Positions 2,297 through 45,049 of a stretch of 45,491 nt of DNA are shown here, in pieces. Under the pieces are notes generated by a model. That model did not search any database, was not told where the DNA came from, and saw only the letters and a list, made by a program, of their open reading frames with translations. Numbering within the stretch: the first letter of the stretch is position 1; each line of letters starts with the position of its first letter. Both the position numbers and the translations under genes were made by a program. Origin of the DNA: a virus; IMG/VR virus record IMGVR_UViG_3300024429_000004, positions 1 to 45,491 of that record. The stretch is one strand, 5' to 3'.

Positions 2297-2804
2297 CGGC
2301 GAGTTCATAGCGTCCATCAGCCCGGCAGAGCCGACGGGCACCGACTATGCAACATTCGATACGATTGAGGGCGGTTCGACTGTCCCAGAGCGTATTGGGG
2401 TCTATGACTTTTCCGGCTCGGACGAGGAGTTCATGGACTTCGCTTGTGTGCTGTTGCCTCAGTATGATGGCGGCGGCCTGACCCTGCGGATCATATGGAG
2501 TGCGTCAGTTGGATTTGCGAATCACACAGTGTGGCAAGCAGCAATTCGTCGGGTCGCCGATGATGCTGAAAATCTGAACACCAGCCACAATTATTCCTAT
2601 CAAATCGTAGAGGCGGCAGCACCTTCTGCCGTTGGCGAGGTGTCTTATGACGAGATTACCTTTACTGACGGCGAACAGATGGACGACCTGGAGGCGGGAG
2701 AGAAGTTCATCTTGCGGATCAAGCGTGATCCTGCACATCCTAACGACGATATGGCCGGCGATGCGGAACTACATGCCCAAGACCTGCTGATCAAGGAAAC
2801 CTGA
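2289..2804 (+). CDS. Putative virion beta-sandwich protein
   Basis: The product is 171 residues, starting at ATG 2289 inside the end of the previous gene. It is beta-rich: alternating hydrophobic strands such as LTLRIIWSAS and a C-terminal GEKFILRIKRDP are typical of jelly-roll or carbohydrate-binding phage head/tail decoration proteins. No catalytic motif is visible. Its stop overlaps the ATG of the LamG protein (TGATG), so the two are likely co-translated. A receptor-binding or decoration role is inferred from fold appearance and neighbours. Confidence 0.55.
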   Translation: MASGEFIASISPAEPTGTDYATFDTIEGGSTVPERIGVYDFSGSDEEFMDFACVLLPQYDGGGLTLRIIWSASVGFANHTVWQAAIRRVADDAENLNTSHNYSYQIVEAAAPSAVGEVSYDEITFTDGEQMDDLEAGEKFILRIKRDPAHPNDDMAGDAELHAQDLLIKET

Positions 2805-4696
2805 TGGCCCTCTATTTCGATCCCGGTGTGTCCGATCAGTACCTCGAGGCTGCATCCGTGCCAGTCAACGGACTGCCCCTGTCCTTCTCGTGTTGGGTGA
2901 ACATGCAAGGCGCAGCCGTGGGCTATAGGACACTCTTCGGCATCTTTAGTACCGTTGGTGGCAACGGCCTTTATTGCTTAAGGGCAAAAGAGGATCAAGG
3001 TTTCCCGACTAATCCACGATTCCAGGCCGAGTCCAATGACGGCACAAAGGGGGGGCGAATACTCGTTACGACGACTGCGGACTACGCGACCCATACGTGG
3101 CACCACATTGTTGGCGTCTTTTCGGATAGTACGCAGTGGATAATGATGGATGGGGACAATTACGATTCCGTAGGCGCGGCGAAGTCGTTTAGTAGCTCGG
3201 ACACGACAAGCATTGGGCACAAGATTGGAGCGGCTGGAGGAAGTAACGGAGTAGACGCTTACCTGGCTGAGCTTGCTATCTGGAATGTGGCGTTAGATGC
3301 ACCATATGAGGCGATTGCTCTTGCTCGTGGGAGAAAACCTAATCGGGTACGGCCGGGGAATCTCGTGTTCTATCGGCCCACGGTCCGGGACGAAGATATA
3401 GACATAGTGGGAAGAATGAGCATGATCCCCACGGGGCCGCCCACCGTCGCGCCTTCCCATCCTCCGATCATTGGAGACTATCGCGCCGGTCGGGGACTGT
3501 TTGTAGAGCCTGCGGTAGCCGAGGACCGCACTTTCCTGCCCGAACCAGCAGTGCTCACCCTTGCGCCCGTTGCCCCCGCGTTGTTGCCTGTCTTGCAGCT
3601 TGCCCCCGTAGCCACGGCCCTGGTCATGGGCGCGCCGGATGTAAGCATCGCCTTGGGGGCCTTGACCTTCGAGCCCGAACCGGTAGCTCTGACGTTAACC
3701 GCCCCGTCGATCACCCTAGACATAGAGATCACCGAACGGGTGTTCATGCCCACCCCGGTTGTGTTTCAAGTCCTTGCGCCGGATATCCTGTTGGGCCTTG
3801 GTGCGTTGGTTTTGCAACCGGCTGCCATCGCGATTGAGACTACTGCGCCAAGCATATCGATCACCCTCGGCGAATTGGTCTTACAGCCGACGACCACGCC
3901 ATTGACTCTGACCGCCCCGTCAATCGGCCTGGACGTCCAGCTGGTCCTACAGATCGGGCCGACGGCGCTGCAGCTCTCCGCCCCCGACGTAGCTCTGGGC
4001 TTGGGCGCGCTGACGCTACAGCCGGTAGCAACCGCCTTACAGATGACGGCACCAGATGTGTCGATCGTCTCGCTGCTCACTTTGCAGCCGACAGCCACGG
4101 TGCTCAACATCGTGGCGCCTGACATTGGGATTGAGCTTGGCGAGCTGTTGCTGCAACCATCGCCAACGGTGCTGCAACTCGGCGTACCAGCACCGACGAT
4201 AATCCTCGGCACCTTGACCCTTAACGCCGAACCGACGGCGCTCTTGCTGGGCGCGCCGGACGTGCTGCTGGGCTTGCAATTGACGCTCAACCCAAGCCCG
4301 ATCGTCTTGCAGGTGACTGCTCCGGACGTATCGGTGACCCGGGTTCTGACCCTGCACCCCGACGCGACGGTCCTGGCCATCGTGCCGAAAGACGTGGCGC
4401 TCGAGCTAGGGGCGTTGACTATCCAGCCCGTGCCGGTGGCCCTGACGTTGACCGCGCCGGACATTCGGATGTGGACCTACGGCCGCGAGATGGTACTCGC
4501 GACGTTGCAAATAACCAGACTTGTGGAGGCGACGTTAGCGATGGCTGAGGAAGTAGCTGTGACGTTGGACATCCGAAAAGAAGTGGCCATCGACCTAGCT
4601 GTGCGGCGAGAGGTTGATGTCACATTAGCCGTGGTCCAGGAGAAGGCTGAAACCCTGAGCATACGGACGGAAGTAGAAGCGGTCCTGGAGCGATAG
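2804..4696 (+). CDS. LamG-domain fibre protein with two classes of tandem repeats
   Basis: This 630-residue protein has three parts. Residues 1 to about 190 look like a LamG/concanavalin-like jelly roll (LPLSFSCWVNM near the start; ELAIWNVAL near its end), a glycan-binding fold common in phage adhesins. Residues about 243-557 are a tandem array of roughly 13-14 units of 21-23 residues, each close to LTLQPxPTxLxLTAPDVxLxLG. Residues about 566-630 switch to a 10-residue repeat (VxVTLxxRxE). The repeats probably form an extended beta fibre. With the flanking small beta proteins it is the best candidate for a head or tail fibre that contacts the host surface. It is unusual in lying before the large terminase gene. 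Confidence 0.75.
   Translation: MALYFDPGVSDQYLEAASVPVNGLPLSFSCWVNMQGAAVGYRTLFGIFSTVGGNGLYCLRAKEDQGFPTNPRFQAESNDGTKGGRILVTTTADYATHTWHHIVGVFSDSTQWIMMDGDNYDSVGAAKSFSSSDTTSIGHKIGAAGGSNGVDAYLAELAIWNVALDAPYEAIALARGRKPNRVRPGNLVFYRPTVRDEDIDIVGRMSMIPTGPPTVAPSHPPIIGDYRAGRGLFVEPAVAEDRTFLPEPAVLTLAPVAPALLPVLQLAPVATALVMGAPDVSIALGALTFEPEPVALTLTAPSITLDIEITERVFMPTPVVFQVLAPDILLGLGALVLQPAAIAIETTAPSISITLGELVLQPTTTPLTLTAPSIGLDVQLVLQIGPTALQLSAPDVALGLGALTLQPVATALQMTAPDVSIVSLLTLQPTATVLNIVAPDIGIELGELLLQPSPTVLQLGVPAPTIILGTLTLNAEPTALLLGAPDVLLGLQLTLNPSPIVLQVTAPDVSVTRVLTLHPDATVLAIVPKDVALELGALTIQPVPVALTLTAPDIRMWTYGREMVLATLQITRLVEATLAMAEEVAVTLDIRKEVAIDLAVRREVDVTLAVVQEKAETLSIRTEVEAVLER
3531..4475 (+). repeat. Array of ~22-residue coding repeats in the LamG fibre
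   Basis: Thirteen to fourteen units of about 63-69 bp encode the pattern L-L-x-P-x-x-T-x-L-x-L-x-A-P-D-V followed by a short hydrophobic G-ending strand. The units are diverged at DNA level but clear in protein, which suggests an old expansion under structural constraint. Confidence 0.85.
4500..4690 (+). repeat. Decapeptide coding repeats at the C-terminus of the LamG fibre
   Basis: About six consecutive 30-bp units encode VAVTLDIRKE-like decapeptides (VAIDLAVRRE, VDVTLAVVQE, KAETLSIRTE). The hydrophobic-TL-hydrophobic pattern and terminal Glu are kept in each unit. The period differs from the preceding 22-residue array, so a separate structural element is likely. Confidence 0.85.
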
Positions 4697-16724: not shown

Positions 16725-16906
16725 ACCGGGGAGAGCTGTATCGTCAACTGGCCACGCTCTACGGCTGGCCGCCGGAGGTGGTGGCGAACATGACGCCGGA
16801 CCAGCAGATGATGTACCTGGAGGGCGAACCTCGGGAGGGCTATAGGAGTTTCGCCACAATGGCAGAGGCGCAGGCCTATTTAGATCAGAGGGCCAAACAT
16901 GGCTAA
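16236..16906 (+). CDS. Tail assembly chaperone, -1 frameshift (GT-like) product
   Basis: A -1 shift at A_AAA_AAG (16694-16700) joins the upstream frame to a second frame read from base 16700 and ending at TAA 16904-16906, giving about 223 residues. The extension begins ADTDAAPVDRGELYRQLATL and includes YGWPPEVVANMTPDQQMMYL, the typical T-domain pattern (aromatic-G-W followed by a helix with TPxQxxxYL). The second frame has no start codon of its own in a sensible place and overlaps the tape-measure start by 8 bases. This is the conserved architecture of lambda G/GT. Confidence 0.88.
16694..16700 (+). promoter_or_regulatory. Programmed -1 ribosomal frameshift site A_AAA_AAG
   Basis: A run of nine A residues (16691-16699) followed by G contains the heptamer A AAA AAG in the zero frame, the same slippery sequence used in bacterial dnaX. 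Slipping one base back places the ribosome in the T-domain frame. The surrounding codon phase (GCA AAA AAA AAG) confirms the register. Confidence 0.87.
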
Positions 16907-18680
16907 TCCATCGGTCACCATCGACCTAGTAGCGCGGGACAAGCGCTTCAACGCGGCGATGACGCGCCTACAGGGCGTGCTCAGAAATGTCGCGGCGCGC
17001 ATGCAGCGCGTTTCCCAGGCTGCCCGCCGGATGCTGCTGGTGGGCGGCCTGGCAATGGCCGGACTTTTGAAAGCAGCGTCTGATTACGAAGAGACTATCT
17101 CAAAGTTTAAGGCCGTGTTCAAGGACCAGAGCGATGCCGCTCAAAAGTGGTCGGTTGATACGGCCAGAGTCCTGAACCGATCTCGCACAAATCTTCTGGC
17201 CTATATGGCTACATTGCAGGATACATTTGTGCCCTTTGGTTTTGCACGAGATCGGGCGTTTGAGCTATCCAAGCAGATCACACAACTCGGTATTGATCTA
17301 GCATCATTTAACAACATGGCTGATAGTGAGGCGATTCAGCTACTTACCTCGGCTCTTGTTGGTAATCACGAAGCAGTTCGCCGTTTTGGTGTCCTCATCA
17401 CACAGGCGACATTGAATCAGAAGCTGTTTCAAATGGGTATTGCTGGTGGCACCAAAGCAGCCACAGAGCAAGAGAAGGTTCTCGCCCGTATCGCACTGTT
17501 ATTAGAAATGACATCTGACGCTCAAGGAGATGCTGCACGAACTGCCGAATCATTTGCGAATCAGCTTAAGGGACTCACGGCGGATGTAACTGACCTCGCC
17601 GTGGCACTCGGTCAAATCTTCATACCACGCATTGGACGTCTTCTCGAATTATTCAGGCGCATGACAAGTGCAGCTAAGGAATGGATCGCGCAAAACGTCG
17701 CACTAGCTAGAACGCTGGGGGACGTAGCACTTGGCGTCGGGGCGGTAACTTTTGCGGTTGCTGGTCTCTCCGCCGCTTTGGCTACGCTCGGTTTCGGCGC
17801 TGCGGGGCTTGCAGCTCTTAGTGCCTATGGGGCAAAGCTGGCCGTTGTCGCTGCTGTGATCGCGAAAGCGACGGCCGTACTGGCCGTACCCGCGCTTGTA
17901 GGTGGAATCGTTTGGGCTTGGGTCGATCAGGCTAATACCATCAAACGTGCTGCGGCAGAGGCAGAGTATTACAATGAACGGCTGGCGGCAATCGGCCGGA
18001 CATTTAGGGACTTGGCGTTGAATCCAACGCTTGCAAACCAACTCCGGGCATGGCAGGACATCAGGACGAATCTCAAAGACGTAGTCAAGACGCTGGGCGA
18101 TGCCTATCAGCCGATGCTGGACAATGCCATGCGCCGCGTTCTGGAGATACAACTCGCAATCAAGAAAGCCACCGCTGAACCCACACGTAGACGAGATATT
18201 CTTGCTCCCTTCCGTGGTGTACTCGAACTATTGCGAACGTTCGCGGACTTGAACGAGCGCGGTCAGCAATTCAACGATCAACTCCAAGAGCAGGCAGACC
18301 GCATCAAGGAGATCACGAAGACCACGCACGAACGTGTGCAAGAGGAATTGAAGCTGTTGGAAATACTACGGCTGCAAGGCTTGATTACAGAGCAAGATTA
18401 CGCCCGTCGCCGCAAGCAATTGGCCGAACAAGCTGCCCAAACGAGTGGGCAGGCACTAGCCGGTACATTTGAGGCCCTTACTGCAACGCATCGGCGCATT
18501 CAACAAGCGGCACTACGGCGAGCTGATCCAACTATCGCACCCATCGTACAGACCGCCCAGAACACGAAGATGGCTATCGCCGTCCAAGAGAAGATAGCAC
18601 GCGCGATCAAGAACGTACTCGATTGGTTGAAGAACATTCCGCAGCCCGGCACTGCGCTAGTCGGCATATACGGACCATGA
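16899..18680 (+). CDS. Tail tape measure protein
   Basis: The 593-residue protein is predominantly helical. It begins PSVTIDLVARDKRFNAAMTRL (typical of the family) and has a central pair of hydrophobic stretches at about 270-345 (VGAVTFAVAGLSAALATLGF; VIAKATAVLAVPALVGG), then a long coiled-coil C-terminal half. It sets tail length; 593 residues at about 0.15 nm per residue would give a tail near 90 nm. No lytic transglycosylase or peptidase domain is visible, so DNA entry through the wall is not aided by a recognisable enzyme here. Confidence 0.92.
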   Translation: MANPSVTIDLVARDKRFNAAMTRLQGVLRNVAARMQRVSQAARRMLLVGGLAMAGLLKAASDYEETISKFKAVFKDQSDAAQKWSVDTARVLNRSRTNLLAYMATLQDTFVPFGFARDRAFELSKQITQLGIDLASFNNMADSEAIQLLTSALVGNHEAVRRFGVLITQATLNQKLFQMGIAGGTKAATEQEKVLARIALLLEMTSDAQGDAARTAESFANQLKGLTADVTDLAVALGQIFIPRIGRLLELFRRMTSAAKEWIAQNVALARTLGDVALGVGAVTFAVAGLSAALATLGFGAAGLAALSAYGAKLAVVAAVIAKATAVLAVPALVGGIVWAWVDQANTIKRAAAEAEYYNERLAAIGRTFRDLALNPTLANQLRAWQDIRTNLKDVVKTLGDAYQPMLDNAMRRVLEIQLAIKKATAEPTRRRDILAPFRGVLELLRTFADLNERGQQFNDQLQEQADRIKEITKTTHERVQEELKLLEILRLQGLITEQDYARRRKQLAEQAAQTSGQALAGTFEALTATHRRIQQAALRRADPTIAPIVQTAQNTKMAIAVQEKIARAIKNVLDWLKNIPQPGTALVGIYGP

Positions 18681-18683
18681 CCA

Positions 18684-19517
18684 ATGGCAGCCATAACAGT
18701 CGAACATGCTGAACGCGATGACTCCCCCCAAACGCGGCGCGAGGGACTTCAGTTCGTAGCCACCCGGACACTTCAATGCGCATGGGAGGACCGCAAGAAG
18801 CTGGAAGCCGAACTGATAGCGTGGCCCGGCCATTTGTATCCCCATGCGACGAACATGCAGGCACGAGTACACAGCGTAGCGGTCAAGCCGTTTGGTAAAC
18901 AGGCCGCTGATGAAGATGGGCTTCCGGTATATATCGATGCGGTGCTGACTGTTGAATACCGAACGCCGGGCGCTTACACAGCGAGGAGTATCAGTGGTAC
19001 TGCCGATAGTGTATCGGGTAGTCAGATTTACAGTGATGTCAAATACGTTGAAAGCATCGAACCAGCGATCGACAACGTAGTGCTGGATCATTCCCGATTT
19101 TTGTGGGAAGACTACACAAAACTGGAACCCGCTGAAGCGCCCAGTCTGGCGCTTCCAAGTTGGGAATATTCTTTTCACGTGCTCAATGGAACCTTTATAC
19201 CGCCGGTGGCTCAAGAGGCTACTGGCAAGGTGAACAGTGGCGCGTTGACAACCCGCTTGGGGCACTTGTTCTTTAAGCCCGAGACCTTACTCTACCTCGG
19301 TCCATCAGTTAGCCGGACGATGGAACCGGGTCAAAGCGGCAGTCGGTTGGACATTCTACACAGATTCCTGTTCAAGCCCACCGGATGGAACCACTATGCC
19401 AGGTCAGCCGCGCCTACGGGCATGGAGAAATTTCAACGCATTGTACTTATAGACGCCGAAGATACTCCGTATAATACGTATGAGTTGATCAACTTGTTCA
19501 ACATCACGTTTGGATAG
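18684..19517 (+). CDS. Minor tail protein (distal tail region)
   Basis: The 277-residue product follows the tape measure by three bases, the position of distal tail proteins. It is mixed alpha/beta with many aromatic residues, including a central WEYSFHVLNGTFIPP and RLGHLFFKPETLLYLGP, and a C-terminal YNTYELINLFNITFG. I see no hydrolase motif. A role in the tail tip is inferred from order and composition. Confidence 0.6.
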   Translation: MAAITVEHAERDDSPQTRREGLQFVATRTLQCAWEDRKKLEAELIAWPGHLYPHATNMQARVHSVAVKPFGKQAADEDGLPVYIDAVLTVEYRTPGAYTARSISGTADSVSGSQIYSDVKYVESIEPAIDNVVLDHSRFLWEDYTKLEPAEAPSLALPSWEYSFHVLNGTFIPPVAQEATGKVNSGALTTRLGHLFFKPETLLYLGPSVSRTMEPGQSGSRLDILHRFLFKPTGWNHYARSAAPTGMEKFQRIVLIDAEDTPYNTYELINLFNITFG

Positions 19518-19543: not shown

Positions 19544-19969
19544 ATGAATCCACATCTGCTACGTACTCCACATCCCGGTGATCCGCTAAGTGCCGAACAG
19601 GGAGCGCTTATCACTCAGTTGTTGCGCCGGACATTCACGGGCGCTGGGGTCATGCAGACTTCGCGGGGTTGGACCATCACCCAGCGGCCCTCTACGCCTG
19701 TCGCAGCGCAACGCCTCGTTCGCATCACGGCCGTCCTATCCGATCGACTTCGCTGCCAGGAAGTGCGGATGATTGATTGGCGGGAATGGCAGAACGTGGG
19801 CGAGATATTCGACGCCGCGGCCTGGCCATCACAGGAACTTAGTGACTACGAGGGCGCGGACCAGATCATTATGAAGGCCGAGAAGTACGGCACGTACTGG
19901 GTTGTGCAGTTGATGGGCGATCGTCTGCACGCGGTCTACCCGGACGCATTCTGCGAGGCCTGCGCTTGA
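19544..19969 (+). CDS. Tail-tip module hypothetical protein (141 aa)
   Basis: The protein lies between the distal-tail gene and the cysteine-rich tail protein, one base from the latter. It contains a central beta region (QRLVRITAVLSDRLRCQEVRM), a WREWQNVGEIFDAAAWP segment, and ends with FCEACA, which may bind metal or form a disulfide with the following cysteine-rich protein. No family recognised. A structural tail role is inferred. Confidence 0.5.
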   Translation: MNPHLLRTPHPGDPLSAEQGALITQLLRRTFTGAGVMQTSRGWTITQRPSTPVAAQRLVRITAVLSDRLRCQEVRMIDWREWQNVGEIFDAAAWPSQELSDYEGADQIIMKAEKYGTYWVVQLMGDRLHAVYPDAFCEACA

Positions 19970-19970
19970 C

Positions 19971-21566
19971 ATGCTACTCGCCAACCAATGCTGTTGGCTG
20001 CTATTCACCGAGGTCCGGGCCAATCGCCCGACGACCATCGAGGGCGTCAACATCCCGATAGGCAAGACCTTTTGGGTGGCGGACGAGATGATCGACAGCC
20101 TAAGACCGGAGGGTGGCTGCCAACGACTCGTCGGTCTGCTGGTCCGTCATCCGACCGATCAGAGGATGCGGATACGCATCTGCAACTGCCCGGACGTCTG
20201 CTACCTGGAAGGGAAGATGACCCGCGATCCGGTCAGCCAACGGATGAAGTTCAAGGCCGAGATACCGCAAGACTGCTGCCAGTGTGAGGTCCAGCTTCGT
20301 ACCCTGCCGTATTGTCAACCCGTCCTGGACGTGCCGAAGGACTGTTACGACGTCACGTCCTACGATACGTGTGATCCCCCAACGTATAGCGATCAGCTTC
20401 ACAGCGGTACGGGTGTGTGTTACCCACGCGGCACGCTGTTCGAGACGACCTTCCCGGTCGTCATCACCCATGATGCTCGCCTCTATTACTTCAAAGAGGT
20501 TACGACCTACCTCTGTAGCCAGACCGCGACCACGCGCCGCAGTCGTTACGTGTCCTTGACGCTGCCTACGGAGGACGAATGCCCCGGGCGCTGCCAGGTC
20601 ATAATAGAGGCCCTTTACGAGCTGCCCTGTTGCCAGTGCGAGATCCGGCTGGTCTCTACCCCTAGCGCAAATGAAGACATAACGATCAGCCACAAGGACT
20701 GTGATAATCAAGGGCTGATAGTTCACTACGGGGATGTGCTCTGTTACCCGGCAGAGGACATAGTTGGTATCGATCTGCCGCTGACCATCAACGTAGGGGG
20801 CGAGACGTGGCGCTTTAAGCACGTGGAATGGTCTGTCTGTTATGATCCAACTCCGGTGACCTACTGGTGGGCTTCGTGGACAATCCACCTGCCGGACCTC
20901 ACACAGTGCCCGACCGACTGCTGGGTCCAGCTCCATGCCTACTATGTGCTGCAGTGCGTCGATAAGGGGTGCCTGGCCCTTATGGAGTTCATGAATAGCC
21001 CCAAATGGATTTTCGCTGGCCAATGTACTGTCGAACCATTAGATTGCTTCAGACTTCCGATTACCGGGTGCGGCGATCATCGTTGTATGGGCTGTCACGC
21101 CTGGGCCATGGAAAAAGCCGAGAACTATTTCCATGGGCTTGTCGTGCCGTTAGAAATACGGGACTGTGATTTGCGCTACATTTCGGGCCACCTTGAAGAG
21201 AGCGTGTGTCACGCCAGTGGTGAATGCATTATCACCAACTTCATCGAGTATGAGGTGCTGCTACGCATAAACTCGTTCCACTGGAACTGCGAGTCGGGTG
21301 AAACCACGATCTGTGGTAAGTTAGCCATCTTTGCCAAAGCGGGGTGGGGACAGACTATGGCGTGTTTCGAGGCGGGCTACTGTCGCGATTGCGAGGGCAC
21401 ACACGTGGGGAGTACGGCATATATGGGGACACATGCAAATGATCCGGTACTGATCGGCTTCTACGACACATGGGGAGAGGCTGCGCAGGCGACGATCAAC
21501 TGGCTGGAAACCAAACAATGGATGTTCGTCCCTGACGCAATCGGCGGTAATCTGATTTTGGAATAG
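19971..21566 (+). CDS. Cysteine-rich tail-tip protein with internal duplication
   Basis: This 531-residue protein contains 39 cysteines by my count (about 7%), very high for a cytoplasmically assembled virion protein. Residues about 102-223 and 224-330 are tandem copies of one unit. Each begins CCQCE(V/I)(Q/R)L, continues through a GVCYP/VLCYP hairpin and ends near C-x-x-x-C then a YELP/YYVL strand. A third cysteine-dense part (about 330-531) has CGDHRCMGCHAW and CFEAGYCRDCEG, which resemble zinc knuckles. It probably forms the rigid tail tip or host-binding hub, stabilised by metals or disulfides. No named family is recognised, and its enzymatic activity, if any, is unknown. Confidence 0.65.
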   Translation: MLLANQCCWLLFTEVRANRPTTIEGVNIPIGKTFWVADEMIDSLRPEGGCQRLVGLLVRHPTDQRMRIRICNCPDVCYLEGKMTRDPVSQRMKFKAEIPQDCCQCEVQLRTLPYCQPVLDVPKDCYDVTSYDTCDPPTYSDQLHSGTGVCYPRGTLFETTFPVVITHDARLYYFKEVTTYLCSQTATTRRSRYVSLTLPTEDECPGRCQVIIEALYELPCCQCEIRLVSTPSANEDITISHKDCDNQGLIVHYGDVLCYPAEDIVGIDLPLTINVGGETWRFKHVEWSVCYDPTPVTYWWASWTIHLPDLTQCPTDCWVQLHAYYVLQCVDKGCLALMEFMNSPKWIFAGQCTVEPLDCFRLPITGCGDHRCMGCHAWAMEKAENYFHGLVVPLEIRDCDLRYISGHLEESVCHASGECIITNFIEYEVLLRINSFHWNCESGETTICGKLAIFAKAGWGQTMACFEAGYCRDCEGTHVGSTAYMGTHANDPVLIGFYDTWGEAAQATINWLETKQWMFVPDAIGGNLILE

Positions 21567-21574
21567 GGTATTCG

Positions 21575-21847
21575 TTGAACGTCGGTACCAGCATGAGAAC
21601 AAGACGCATAGTTGTGGGAGCGGCCAGGAAAGCAATAAGCTATGTCAGAGCAGAAATCGGTCCACGCCTGACGGCCGAGGCCATCCAGGCCCGACTGGTG
21701 ATCTGTGAAGCTTGCGATCGATGTGAGCGGGAGGGAGAGAGATTGTATTGTAAACAATGCGAGTGTGGCCAGTGGTGGCGGAGTGAACTGCACGTTAAGA
21801 TAACAATGGCGCGGGCGCGCTGCCCGCTGAACAAGTGGGAGATATGA
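21575..21847 (+). CDS. Zinc-ribbon protein of the tail module
   Basis: This is a 90-residue frame starting at TTG 21575, or 84 residues from ATG 21593. The C-terminal half has four CxxC-type groups: CEACDRC, then YCKQCECG, then ARCPLNKW at the end. This pattern (CxxC, CxxCxC, CPxxKW) recurs in small phage zinc-ribbon proteins encoded next to tail fibre genes. It likely helps fold or attach tail-tip proteins, possibly the cysteine-rich protein before it. It ends two bases before the fibre gene. Confidence 0.6.
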   Translation: MNVGTSMRTRRIVVGAARKAISYVRAEIGPRLTAEAIQARLVICEACDRCEREGERLYCKQCECGQWWRSELHVKITMARARCPLNKWEI

Positions 21848-21848
21848 G

Positions 21849-23147
21849 ATGAGTCAAGTGTACTGGGTCGGTGGTGCTCCTGCCGTGGCGCAGATCACAA
21901 AGGTAACCGTGGGCGGGACACTGGCCGGTGAGACGTTCACGATCTCGATCGGCGGGGAGGTCATCGCCACACATACGGACGGCACGACCAACATCGCTGA
22001 TACGGTTGCCGCGCTGGTAGCTGCTTTCAATGAATCAACTTGTCCCTACGCGGCCGGAATAATCGCCGCGACCGATGACGACCCGGATGTCGTACTGACG
22101 AGCGAAGTGGACGGTATGCCGTTCGTCATAACGATTAACACGCCGGGCGGATCGGCCACCCTCGAACAGGCCACGCCGACGGCCAGCGCGGGGCCGAACC
22201 ACTGGGACGATGGGAATAACTGGAGCGACGGCGGCCCGCCTGATGATTCTGATAGTGTCATCATAGATGACCCAGATGCTCGCATTCTGTGGGGCATGGA
22301 TCAGAATGCGCTTACGAGTCTTGTTCTGCACCTGAATACTTTTTCGCTCTTGGGACTTCGTCGTGACATATTTATTACGTCGGCGGATGGTACGGCCCAC
22401 AGCGCCCATAGGCCAGAATACCGCTATCAATGGCTCTCCGCCGGATTCGCTGAGATAAACATAGGTAAGCTGACTGGAGGTAATATACCAGCAATCGGAC
22501 GATGCAAGATCGAACAGAACCAAGCAGACGCTAGCGTAGTCGTGCATCATACTGGTAACGCGAGCCTGGACCCAAACTTGCCATCTGTACGTTTCCTCAC
22601 TTCTGGTATATCTGTAACAGATGGCTTTGACATTCTGATCAACGATGCCCCTGGGGGCGTTGGTTTTGGCCTAGATAGAGATGGGGACGTAGAATGCGTA
22701 CTCGGCGATGTCAAAGTCCGGGGAGCCAACAGCAAGGTCGATTACTGCGTATACAGCAGCTCGGGCTATTTGACCATATGGTGGGATGCGTGGATTCAAG
22801 AAGCGGGCACAACGCGGATATACAGCGGGATACAGTCACCGAGTACCCTACCTGCTATGGTCGTTAATGGTGGAACGGTCTACTTAGAACCATACATGTT
22901 AATGGCGGGCCTCACTATCAATGATAGTGGAACAGTGTATGAGACCAATGTCGTATTGGAATCGGACGAGATTACCACAGTGAATCTAAATCGCGGCGGG
23001 CATCTCGACATGACTGGCAGCCGCGGCACCAAGACATATACGACGGTGAATCAGGAGAAAGGGTCTACTCTCGTTCGGAACGATTTGTTGACCATAGGGA
23101 CCTGGAATCTGCCGGCCGATCAAGACTACACCATGGCCCTGACGTAG
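21849..23147 (+). CDS. Tail fibre / spike-like protein
   Basis: The 432-residue protein begins with a beta module (GETFTISIGGEVIATHTDG, then ADTVAALVAAFN, about 15-110) that resembles the inserted modules of the decoration protein. There follows a WDDGNNWSDGGPPDDSDSVIIDD segment and then repetitive beta strands through the C-terminus (about 150-432) with right-handed beta-helix character. This is typical of a phage fibre or spike that binds cell-surface glycans. No catalytic acidic cluster can be assigned by eye, so binding rather than cleavage is the safer call. Confidence 0.68.
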   Translation: MSQVYWVGGAPAVAQITKVTVGGTLAGETFTISIGGEVIATHTDGTTNIADTVAALVAAFNESTCPYAAGIIAATDDDPDVVLTSEVDGMPFVITINTPGGSATLEQATPTASAGPNHWDDGNNWSDGGPPDDSDSVIIDDPDARILWGMDQNALTSLVLHLNTFSLLGLRRDIFITSADGTAHSAHRPEYRYQWLSAGFAEINIGKLTGGNIPAIGRCKIEQNQADASVVVHHTGNASLDPNLPSVRFLTSGISVTDGFDILINDAPGGVGFGLDRDGDVECVLGDVKVRGANSKVDYCVYSSSGYLTIWWDAWIQEAGTTRIYSGIQSPSTLPAMVVNGGTVYLEPYMLMAGLTINDSGTVYETNVVLESDEITTVNLNRGGHLDMTGSRGTKTYTTVNQEKGSTLVRNDLLTIGTWNLPADQDYTMALT

Positions 23148-36794: not shown

Positions 36795-36992
36795 ATGACT
36801 GACAAACCGGCCTTACCACCGTTTGACGAATCGACGCAATGTCCGAAGTGTGGCGATTGCGACATCGCGATATGCTTTTGTAAGGGAAGTATCTGGTCAT
36901 GGGAATGTGCCTTTCGCCAACGGGGCGAACACCTACACCGCCAGTGCCGTCGATGTCACTATGCGTGGCTGGAGGCGTGTCGTGATGACTGA
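36795..36992 (+). CDS. Zinc-ribbon protein (65 aa)
   Basis: This 65-residue protein has CPKCGDCDIAICFCKG followed by W-rich spacing and QCRRCHYAW near the end, giving CxxC...CxxC in a classic ribbon. It starts at ATGACTGACAAA, a start sequence shared with neighbouring genes. No family recognised beyond the metal-binding pattern. Confidence 0.6.
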   Translation: MTDKPALPPFDESTQCPKCGDCDIAICFCKGSIWSWECAFRQRGEHLHRQCRRCHYAWLEACRDD

Positions 36993-37806: not shown

Positions 37807-38035
37807 TGCAGAAGTGATTGAAGCTAGTGAGGTGCCTGCTAAACCGTTGGATGTATTTCAGGTGGTGGGATATTACAACCCTGAACAACGTTGGGTAGGT
37901 AAAGGCCTATACTCGAGCAAACTGTTTGCAGATGCAGCGGTTGAACGTCTGCTGGCCAAGCCGAACTACACTCGTGTAGTCATCTTTCGCCTTGTGTACG
38001 ATCCGAACGCGGAGAGCGGTGAGGCAACACAATGA
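37784..38035 (+). CDS. Hypothetical protein (83 aa)
   Basis: The 83-residue product has an acidic N-terminus (IDAEVIEASEVPAKPLDVFQVVGYYNP) and then a compact alpha/beta region (LFADAAVERLLAKPNYTRVVIFRLVYD). Similar small proteins occur in siphovirus early operons, but no function is known. It ends overlapping the DUF5131 gene (ATGA). Confidence 0.5.
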   Translation: MNQMPLIDAEVIEASEVPAKPLDVFQVVGYYNPEQRWVGKGLYSSKLFADAAVERLLAKPNYTRVVIFRLVYDPNAESGEATQ

Positions 38036-38865
38036 CCAAGATCGCGTGGGTACGTAGGGAAGACACAGTCCCCGTAAGTTGGAACGTCACCACGGGGTGC
38101 AGCCCGATCAGTGCTGGGTGCCGGAACTGTTACGCGGCAGGGATAGCGGTCACGCGGCTAAAGCACCACCCACGATACGCAGGGCTGGCAAACGATGGGG
38201 GAGACGGGGCTTTTTGGACCGGTGAAGTCCGCTGCCACGATGAGCTGCTCGCCGTGCCGCTCCGCTGGCGGAAGCCGCACACGGTGTTCGTCGATTCGAT
38301 GAGCGATCTCTTTCACGACGGGGTGCCGAGCAGTTTCATCCAGCGCGTGTTTGCGGTAGCACATTCGCGCCCCGAGCATACGTTCTTGTTTTTGACCAAA
38401 CGGCCAGAGCGGATGGCTACGGAGGTTGAACTATTCTTGTGCTTTAGCCAAAAGGAGAGGCAAGATCCTCCTGCTAACGTCTGGCTCGGCACGACGGTCG
38501 AGAACGGGGCCAACTTCGGGCGGGTTGATGAGCTGCTCAAGTGTCCGGCGGCCCTGCGGTTCCTCTCGTTAGAGCCGTTGCTGGGGCCGATCCATATTCC
38601 GATGGACGCATGGCCATGCTACGACAGCGGAGAGGACATTCCACCGGAGGAGCGGGGCGAATGGGGTCTGCCTGCTCGTATCCCTGGCATCGACTGGGTC
38701 ATCGTCGGGGCCGAGACCGGCCCGCACGCCCGGCCGATGGAGCTGGAATGGGCGATGAAAATCCAAGAGCAATGTCGTGATGCGGGGGTGCCGTTCTTTT
38801 TCAAACAAGGACCAAAGGGTGTGGTGATTCCGGCCGAGCTGTGCGTGCGGGAGTTCCCGCGATGA
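38032..38865 (+). CDS. DUF5131 (phage Gp37/Gp68 family) protein
   Basis: The 277-residue protein has the family signature near the N-terminus: NVTTGCSPISAGCRNCYA with cysteines at 23, 30 and 33. It also has the downstream DSMSDLFHDGVP and FLFLTKRPERM segments and a C-terminal GAETGPHARPM, then FFFKQ region. The cysteine triad and the conserved layout suggest an iron-sulfur or radical-SAM-like fold, although biochemical function is unknown for phage members. It lies in a run of DNA-metabolism genes, so DNA modification or repair is a natural hypothesis. Confidence 0.88.
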   Translation: MTKIAWVRREDTVPVSWNVTTGCSPISAGCRNCYAAGIAVTRLKHHPRYAGLANDGGDGAFWTGEVRCHDELLAVPLRWRKPHTVFVDSMSDLFHDGVPSSFIQRVFAVAHSRPEHTFLFLTKRPERMATEVELFLCFSQKERQDPPANVWLGTTVENGANFGRVDELLKCPAALRFLSLEPLLGPIHIPMDAWPCYDSGEDIPPEERGEWGLPARIPGIDWVIVGAETGPHARPMELEWAMKIQEQCRDAGVPFFFKQGPKGVVIPAELCVREFPR

Positions 38866-43742: not shown

Positions 43743-44038
43743 CCGACCTTCCCCACATGCTGACCGTCCGCCAGGTTGCGGAGACCCTGCACCGCCGACC
43801 ACAGTACGTCCGCGACCTGATCCAGGGCGGTCAGCTCCGGGCTACGCGCATTGGCCCCCGCGGCGAGTGGTTGGTGTTCGCGGATTCGGTGTGGGTCTTG
43901 CTCGGCGTTTCGATTCGGAAGCAACGGAAGCCGCAGTCTTACTATGATCGGCGGGCGGCACTTGCAAGGGCGAGACGAGGCTACGTGCCACGTGCCGAGC
44001 GCGAGCGTCACGCACTTGTGCGTAAATCTGGACGATAG
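43739..44038 (+). CDS. Excisionase-like HTH protein
   Basis: The 99-residue protein has a MerR/Xis-type winged HTH near the N-terminus: MLTVRQVAETLHRRPQYVRDLIQ, then GQLRATRIGPRGEWLV. A basic C-terminal tail follows. It is adjacent and convergent to the integrase gene, and its 3' part overlaps the integrase end on the opposite strand for 197 bp, so expression of one would produce antisense RNA to the other. This fits a recombination-directionality factor that controls excision. Confidence 0.7.
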   Translation: MTDLPHMLTVRQVAETLHRRPQYVRDLIQGGQLRATRIGPRGEWLVFADSVWVLLGVSIRKQRKPQSYYDRRAALARARRGYVPRAERERHALVRKSGR

Positions 44039-44909
44039 ACAGGTCACGATGTCCGAGCGCAGCGGCCACATCCGATATATCGCATCCCTGATCCAGCATC
44101 GTTTGAGCACGGGTATGCCGGAGCGAATAGATCGTTTGCAGACCGTGCCGTTGAAGGATCGACCGAAGCCCCGCTACGGTGTAGGGCTTGCCGAGTTGGC
44201 TGCGGAAAACGTATCCGGTCCGTGTAGGAACGGTTCGCAGAACGGCTATCGCGTCGGGTGACAGATACAACGTGCGTGCGGTACCTGTCCGTGCGGTCTT
44301 ATGCTTGCCAAGTACGCAAACGGCTCGCGGCAATTGTACGTCTTCCCATCGCAATCCAACGGCTTCACCAGGACGGGCGCCAGTTTCCAAGATGAAGCGT
44401 AGAACATTGCGGGCCCGTTCCGGCAGGCTGGCAAAGGTCGCCATCAATTCCGCCGGCCGGGCATCGCGTGGTCGAACGAGCGGTTTGGGAAGATTGGGCG
44501 CCTCCGGTAGTGTCGCCAAATAGTCGTTTTTGATGCACCACCGCAGAACGCGAGTGGCAAGCCGGACCTTGTGGCGGATGGTGCTGGCGGCTTGCTTTTG
44601 TCGCCTGAGGTGACGTGTGTATTTGGCCAGATGGTCCAACCCAAGGCGATCGAGTTCCGTGGTGCCAGCAAAGTCGTCCCAGGCATTCAGTATCCAAACC
44701 TCCCACTTACCGCCGTAGATGAGTTGCCAGGCGGCGATAGCCTCGGCGACGGTCTCAGGTCGGTCGGTGGGCGCCTCGTGGCCTACGATCTCGCCGAACC
44801 GGCGATATGCCTGGGCCATTTTGGTTCCGAGGTAGTATTTCCGGTTTCGATACCGGCAGAACCACGAATTCCGGGACTTGTCGTATCGTGGTTGCGATGT
44901 CCAGCCCAT
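43842..44909 (-). CDS. int: Tyrosine site-specific integrase
   Basis: The 355-residue recombinase has an arm-binding N-terminus, a SAM-like core-binding domain (about 55-140) and a catalytic domain with R179 (GARPGEAVG), a Lys at 202-204, R264 and H287 (YSLRHTR, LGHRDL), and the nucleophile Y296 (QIYAQV). The usual first His of the HxxR box is Tyr261. I take ATG at 44907-44909 as start, because TTG 44978 lies within the promoter (44949-44978). It reads away from attP, which is 94 bp upstream, and integrates at tRNA-Pro. Its last 59 residues are basic/disordered and antisense to the excisionase gene. Confidence 0.9.
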   Translation of the reverse strand: MGWTSQPRYDKSRNSWFCRYRNRKYYLGTKMAQAYRRFGEIVGHEAPTDRPETVAEAIAAWQLIYGGKWEVWILNAWDDFAGTTELDRLGLDHLAKYTRHLRRQKQAASTIRHKVRLATRVLRWCIKNDYLATLPEAPNLPKPLVRPRDARPAELMATFASLPERARNVLRFILETGARPGEAVGLRWEDVQLPRAVCVLGKHKTARTGTARTLYLSPDAIAVLRTVPTRTGYVFRSQLGKPYTVAGLRSILQRHGLQTIYSLRHTRAQTMLDQGCDISDVAAALGHRDLSIVQIYAQVRDARARHVARSLVSPLQVPPADHSKTAASVASESKRRARPTPNPRTPTTRRGGQCA

Positions 44910-45002: not shown

Positions 45003-45049
45003 TCGGGGCGACTGGATTCGAACCAGCGACCTCTTGACCCCCAGTCAAG
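45003..45049 (-). other. 3' half of tRNA-Pro(GGG), attP core
   Basis: On the minus strand the sequence reads CTTGA, loop CTGGGGG, TCAAG (anticodon stem-loop with anticodon GGG), a short variable loop, GCTGG-TTCGAAT-CCAGT (T arm), and CGCCCCG plus A (3' acceptor strand). The 5' acceptor strand and D arm are absent. This is the segment that restores a host tRNA-Pro gene after integration. Confidence 0.85.

Follow-up and report, generated by a model that had tools for sequence, protein, structure and literature searches.

A cysteine-framework protein with a tandem duplication in the tail-tip gene cluster of a phage genome

The reading frame at 19971-21566 (+) of the virus record analysed here, which at its full length of 45,491 bases is referred to as the window, encodes a real, unusual and hitherto unclassified cysteine-framework protein of the tail-tip cluster. 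Around the observed reading frame, duplication, conserved cysteine frame and gene order, our best explanation, to which we give an even chance of being correct, is that the protein is a disulfide-braced component of the tail tip or adsorption apparatus, composed of an N-terminal part, two Cys-framework domains and a third Cys-dense part. The genes of the cluster and the parts of the Cys-rich ORF are as follows.

16899..18680 (+): tail tape measure protein (phrog_1535 and others)
18684..19517 (+): post-tape-measure protein, a remote family member, possibly with a Dit-like N-terminal domain (profile alignment; weak fold matches)
19544..19969 (+): 141-aa protein ending FCEACA (no family match above the cut-off)
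19971..21566 (+): Cys-rich ORF, 531 aa with 39 Cys, 7.3% (ORF translation, Cys count, codon-score test)
19971..20273 (+): N-terminal part of the Cys-rich ORF, residues 1-101, 6 Cys
20274..20627 (+): repeat unit 1, residues 102-219, 10 Cys (unit alignment)
20628..20954 (+): repeat unit 2, residues 220-328, 8 Cys, each matched in unit 1 (unit alignment)
20955..21392 (+): third Cys-dense part, residues 329-474, 15 Cys (Cys count)
21575..21847 (+): small Zn-ribbon-like protein with 7 Cys, alternative ATG start at 21593 (phrog_13558)
21849..23147 (+): large fibre-like protein, here called fib, 432 aa, the anchor for finding related contigs (fibre-motif scan)

Spurious Cys-rich ORFs are common in the wrong frames of GC-rich DNA, many having been met among the contigs of the fibre-motif scan, and for this reason the frame was tested. 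The ORF is free of stops in its own frame as compared to 7-29 stops in each of the five others, and its synonymous-choice score is 0.141 against 0.017 for the best other frame. When all codons are considered the score per codon is 0.132 against 0.104 for the best other frame (antisense), but this small margin is explained by the rarity of Cys codons in the training genes, and without Cys codons the values are 0.274 and 0.138; for comparison, five phage genes, each taken over its full length and in its proper frame, gave 0.23-0.33 per codon. The ORF furthermore sits within one strand-consistent row of genes, and we conclude that 19971-21566 is a genuine coding frame.

Phage structural proteins are usually poor in cysteine, being made in the reducing cytosol. 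A first-pass annotation of this DNA had called a content of about 7% very unusual for a tail protein, and the exact count bears this out, since the 16 head and tail ORFs between 6492 and 19517 hold just 0-1.2% Cys. The cysteines of the protein are spaced as C-C-x-C and C-P-x-x-C with isolated residues in between, and a regular series of CxxC knuckles is absent; CxxC does occur at residues 102-105, 220-223, 372-375 and 471-474, together with several CxC and CxxxC pairs, and residues 475-531 are devoid of Cys.

The two tandem copies of about 115 residues proposed in the first-pass annotation are confirmed as residues 102-219 and 220-328, which are 30% identical, and judging from the alignments the duplication is real. 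Local alignment of residues 102-220 with 220-329, in which the gaps are placed slightly differently than in the unit alignment, scores 116, a value reached by none of 2000 full shuffles and likewise by none of 2000 shuffles with Cys fixed in position. When Cys is masked the similarity is weak, 17 of 2000 shuffles reaching the score, and Cys accounts for 9 of the 33 identical columns. Eight Cys are common to both units and unit 1 carries exactly two more, at residues 115 and 125, the latter within an insertion of eight residues. The third Cys-dense part that had also been proposed is present as well, but its kinship to unit 2 is marginal: the score of residues 388-448 against unit 2 is reached by 16 of 1000 Cys-fixed and 15 of 1000 full shuffles, so that this stretch may, with weak support, represent a degenerate third copy of the repeat. 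The N-terminal part showed no detectable kinship to the repeat units when aligned and compared with shuffles.

With respect to genomic setting, PHROGs matches in the window include a terminase, a portal, a head protease and a major head protein, and the Cys-rich ORF follows the tape measure, post-tape-measure and 141-aa genes and precedes the Zn-ribbon-like ORF and fib. It thus comes after the tape measure and hub genes and in the neighbourhood of a fibre gene, as expected of tail-tip or adsorption genes, and this gene order supports its membership of the tail-tip/adsorption cluster, by which the protein would be part of the virion. The earlier designation as a tail-tip protein accordingly stands as far as gene order reaches, and drew no other support. 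Both neighbours that had been pointed out, the Zn-ribbon gene and the preceding protein ending FCEACA, do adjoin the ORF, but the metal-loading or oxidation pathway that had been read from them found no backing, since the Zn-ribbon-like ORF matches only phrog_13558, whose function is unknown, and the 24 window proteins put through Pfam gave no match to a thiol oxidoreductase.

The assignment of the post-tape-measure protein derives from a profile of eight sequences of a family whose members come after the tape measure gene in related contigs, and with this profile it aligns at 89% hhalign probability over 62 columns, whereas single pairs gave close to nothing; the pattern NS...F.P.TLL...GW is visible in it. 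The fold of the family was modelled on the post-tape-measure protein of another contig, L114, from seven sequences, the window protein entering as an alignment row only, and this model reached a mean pLDDT of 80.5. Its best matches among solved structures are the monocin tip (Z 5.9) and the 80alpha baseplate (Z 5.7), each over 82 residues at 3.4 A, with unrelated chains at Z 5.2, while the distal-tail matches in Foldseek are weak (E 0.25 and 0.31, none under 0.25). In a library of viral models 12 proteins matched at E up to 0.001; three of these are nameless, and the other nine come from uncultured Caudovirales and are uncharacterised. The model suggests, and does no more than suggest, that the protein at 18684-19517 is a Dit-like hub protein.

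No family was recognised for the Cys-rich protein in the first-pass annotation, and this holds in Pfam (E up to 1), PHROGs, NCBIfam and the PDB sequences; a literature search likewise returned nothing on it. Peptide-pattern scans of viral contigs gave no hit with the whole protein and 15 stretches with the unit alignment, none of them confirmed, and a scan of genome contigs gave three stretches, again with none confirmed, although such scans rely on short exact peptide patterns that remote relatives can escape. By tblastn no credible relative was found in 50,697 phage records, and none in 72,556 plasmid records or in 18 selected records; three phage records with a best E of 4, from two Vibrio phages, were judged to be chance. 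In the libraries covered, no relative of the protein was thus found. Structure prediction from the one sequence gave a mean pLDDT of only 35 and no usable fold.

Proteins of similar kind are however found in related contigs of uncultured phages, which were located by a DNA pattern for the fib motif N-[HY]-W-D-[DN]-x-x-N-W. The pattern gave 29 viral stretches, 17 of which hold fib relatives (tblastn, E up to 0.01). In L093 the order is tape measure, a 273-aa and a 239-aa ORF, a Cys-rich ORF (659 aa, 41 Cys), an 85-aa ORF and fib, and in L109 it is tape measure, a 295-aa and a 230-aa ORF, a Cys-rich ORF (649 aa, 40 Cys), a 100-aa ORF and fib; L096 has a 649-aa ORF seemingly identical to that of L109, and L150 a further Cys-rich copy with 62% identity to that of L093. 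These ORFs are, like the window protein, loaded with Cys (40-41 Cys, 6.2%), and in L093 and L109 they occupy the same slot between the post-tape-measure genes and fib and are followed by a small Cys-containing ORF, but unlike their position their sequences have no detectable similarity to the window protein: tblastn gave no match to the ORFs of L093 and L109, and no pair of parts exceeded z 2.5 against shuffles. A common origin of the window units with the C-terminal domains of the L093, L109 and L091 proteins, or with a 173-aa ORF of record G004, was considered and set aside on unconvincing alignment scores, and the likeness to the L093 and L109 ORFs is one of kind and place rather than of proven descent.

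Other contigs are arranged differently. The Cys-rich ORF of L091 is 385 aa long and has 21 Cys, the ORF after it is of 145 aa and has 10 Cys, and here a 428-aa ORF bears the fib motif although a tblastn match to fib is absent; in G004 the 173-aa ORF, with 15 Cys, lies 20 kb from the fib relative; and in L107 and L111 fib comes directly after the post-tape-measure gene with no Cys-rich ORF in between. At least 5.5% Cys was found in four ORFs (three distinct; L109, L096, L093 and L091) of 709 that are at least 250 aa long and not overlapped by a longer ORF, in 144 loci, and all four come from the fib-motif scan, which, the loci having been picked by the fib motif or other similarities and the numbers being small, is an association within the set and not a rate. 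Between the L093 and L109 proteins Cys is the best-kept residue, with 37 of 40 aligned Cys retained as compared to 379 of 599 other aligned residues, and all 31 Cys in the first 536 residues of the L093 protein are kept in L109. Such conservation supports a structural duty of Cys in the proteins sharing this slot; for the window protein it can be assessed between its own two units only.

The small Cys-containing ORFs directly after the Cys-rich ones are at 9935-10189 in L093, 5629-5928 in L109 and 2609-3043 (-) in L091, and inspection shows a recurrent C-x-C pair close to their C-terminal half. Those of L093 and L091 match phrog_32048 and phrog_13952 weakly and represent at least two unrelated types, both other than that of the window, so a common partner is not shown. 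A scan with the L093/L109 alignment gave four loci, one of them new. Phage records held no tblastn match to fib or to the Cys-rich ORFs of L109 and L091, and peptide-pattern scans with the 141-aa protein and with fib gave no hits. Relatives of the major capsid protein occur in 80 loci at about 40% identity, and in these no tail-tip genes in common with the window were found apart from one marginal match, that of L064 to the post-tape-measure protein (43 residues, E 0.029), which was judged to be chance.

That the Cys-rich protein is cross-linked by metal or disulfides, as had been proposed, is plausible from its sequence, and of the two we judge disulfides the more probable. This leaning stems from the eight-Cys frame common to the units, from the fact that CxxC does not recur in a regular series, and from the surplus of two Cys in unit 1, a pairwise change as expected of a disulfide. 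The supporting gene order is found again, around different Cys-rich ORFs, in L093 and L109. Each of the two tandem domains of about 110 residues would be small and braced by about four intradomain disulfides, whose formation would await exit of the particle from the reducing cytosol. The outer part of the tip would in this way be compact and resistant to stress, and there the protein may support or perform host binding together with fib. No obvious N-terminal export signal is seen by inspection, and disulfides would consequently have to form late. The CxxC and CxC pairs would suit metal as well, and the weak likeness of the units once Cys is masked also speaks against the disulfide-braced explanation. 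Binding of Zn, or of an Fe-S cluster as in lambda gpL, would give metal-stabilised domains that fold in the reducing cytosol, and this tentative alternative draws on the four CxxC and the several CxC and CxxxC pairs as well as on the adjoining Zn-ribbon-like gene; it sits poorly with a unit that has two extra Cys without two more for a tetrahedral site, and with the absence of a Pfam family. At E up to 1 the ORF likewise has no match to the gpL family, which is marked by four Cys coordinating a [4Fe-4S] cluster and of which Pfam presumably contains a model.

Alternatively the protein could be non-structural and occupy an accessory slot of the tail operon, as an assembly factor, a moron or an effector against hosts or rival phages. 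The absence of a Cys-rich ORF between the post-tape-measure and fibre genes of L107 and L111 shows it to be dispensable in the wider group, and those of L091 and G004 are located elsewhere, but this is made unlikely by the tail genes that flank such ORFs in the window, L093 and L109, as well as by the length and repeat structure of the protein, which are of a sort usual for adhesion proteins. A wider reading, which we regard as slightly more doubtful still, is that in a group of uncultured phages the tail tip has an exchangeable slot, filled by Cys-framework adhesins from a number of lineages that are unrelated or have diverged fully. Each adhesin would be paired with a small Cys-containing protein that helps to load metal or to steer disulfides, the two genes making up a "thiol module".

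Elsewhere in the window, a 65-aa ORF at 36795-36989 (+) has 9 Cys in zinc-finger-like pairs and no match in a Pfam scan, and the ORF at 38032-38865 (+) has a strong match to DUF5131/phrog_2045, of unknown function. Upstream of the terminase, the protein encoded at 2804-4696 (+), 630 aa in length, bears a laminin-G/concanavalin-like domain (PF13385, E 2.4e-14) and is a candidate second host-binding protein. A tyrosine integrase is encoded at 43845-44909 (-) (PF00589, E 2.6e-20), and beside it a stretch at about 45003-45049 (-) reads by inspection as the 3' half of a tRNA-Pro with anticodon GGG, in which ARAGORN found no whole tRNA. This half is likely attP, and taken together with the integrase it marks the phage as temperate, with a tRNA-Pro gene as the probable site of integration.

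As to the host, motifs tentatively suggest Planctomycetes. Searches of 291 and 297 genomes did not recover the tRNA half. Of 297 genomes from the same phylum as an Acidobacteria MAG, fib matched that MAG alone, on a contig seemingly identical to viral contig L099, and its absence from the other 296 makes the bin doubtful as host evidence; fib was likewise absent from 387 genomes of the phylum of a Verrucomicrobiales MAG and from 201 of that of another MAG. L131, a 9,448-base contig binned in the Acidobacteria MAG, appears to be the same as the viral contig L099.

That a tip protein should have 39 Cys arranged in a repeated frame, with look-alikes in the same slot of other uncultured phages, raises the question of how proteins of this sort fold and of whether oxidation locks the tip when the particle is released. 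Such a protein would also be a new domain type in the adsorption machinery of phages without cultured relatives. A precedent is Agrobacterium phage Milano, in which disulfides link Cys-rich structural proteins and hold the virion together, and DTT weakens it; its structural proteins have 2.4% Cys, spread over head, neck, collar and tail, as compared to 0.9% in the T4 proteome (PMC10491603). The sequence comparison with the Milano proteins was by way of the phage tblastn. Unlike in Milano, the Cys in the window are confined to one tip protein, and the raised content across structural proteins is not seen in the 16 ORFs between 6492 and 19517. Lambda gpL resembles the window protein in being a tail-tip protein whose Cys matter, but its cluster Cys are four in number and lie in a single C-terminal domain (PMC10721106), whereas the window protein has its Cys in repeated units and lacks a Pfam match. 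With disulfides established in Milano and Cys-bound metal in the tail tip of lambda, both are possible for the Cys-rich protein.
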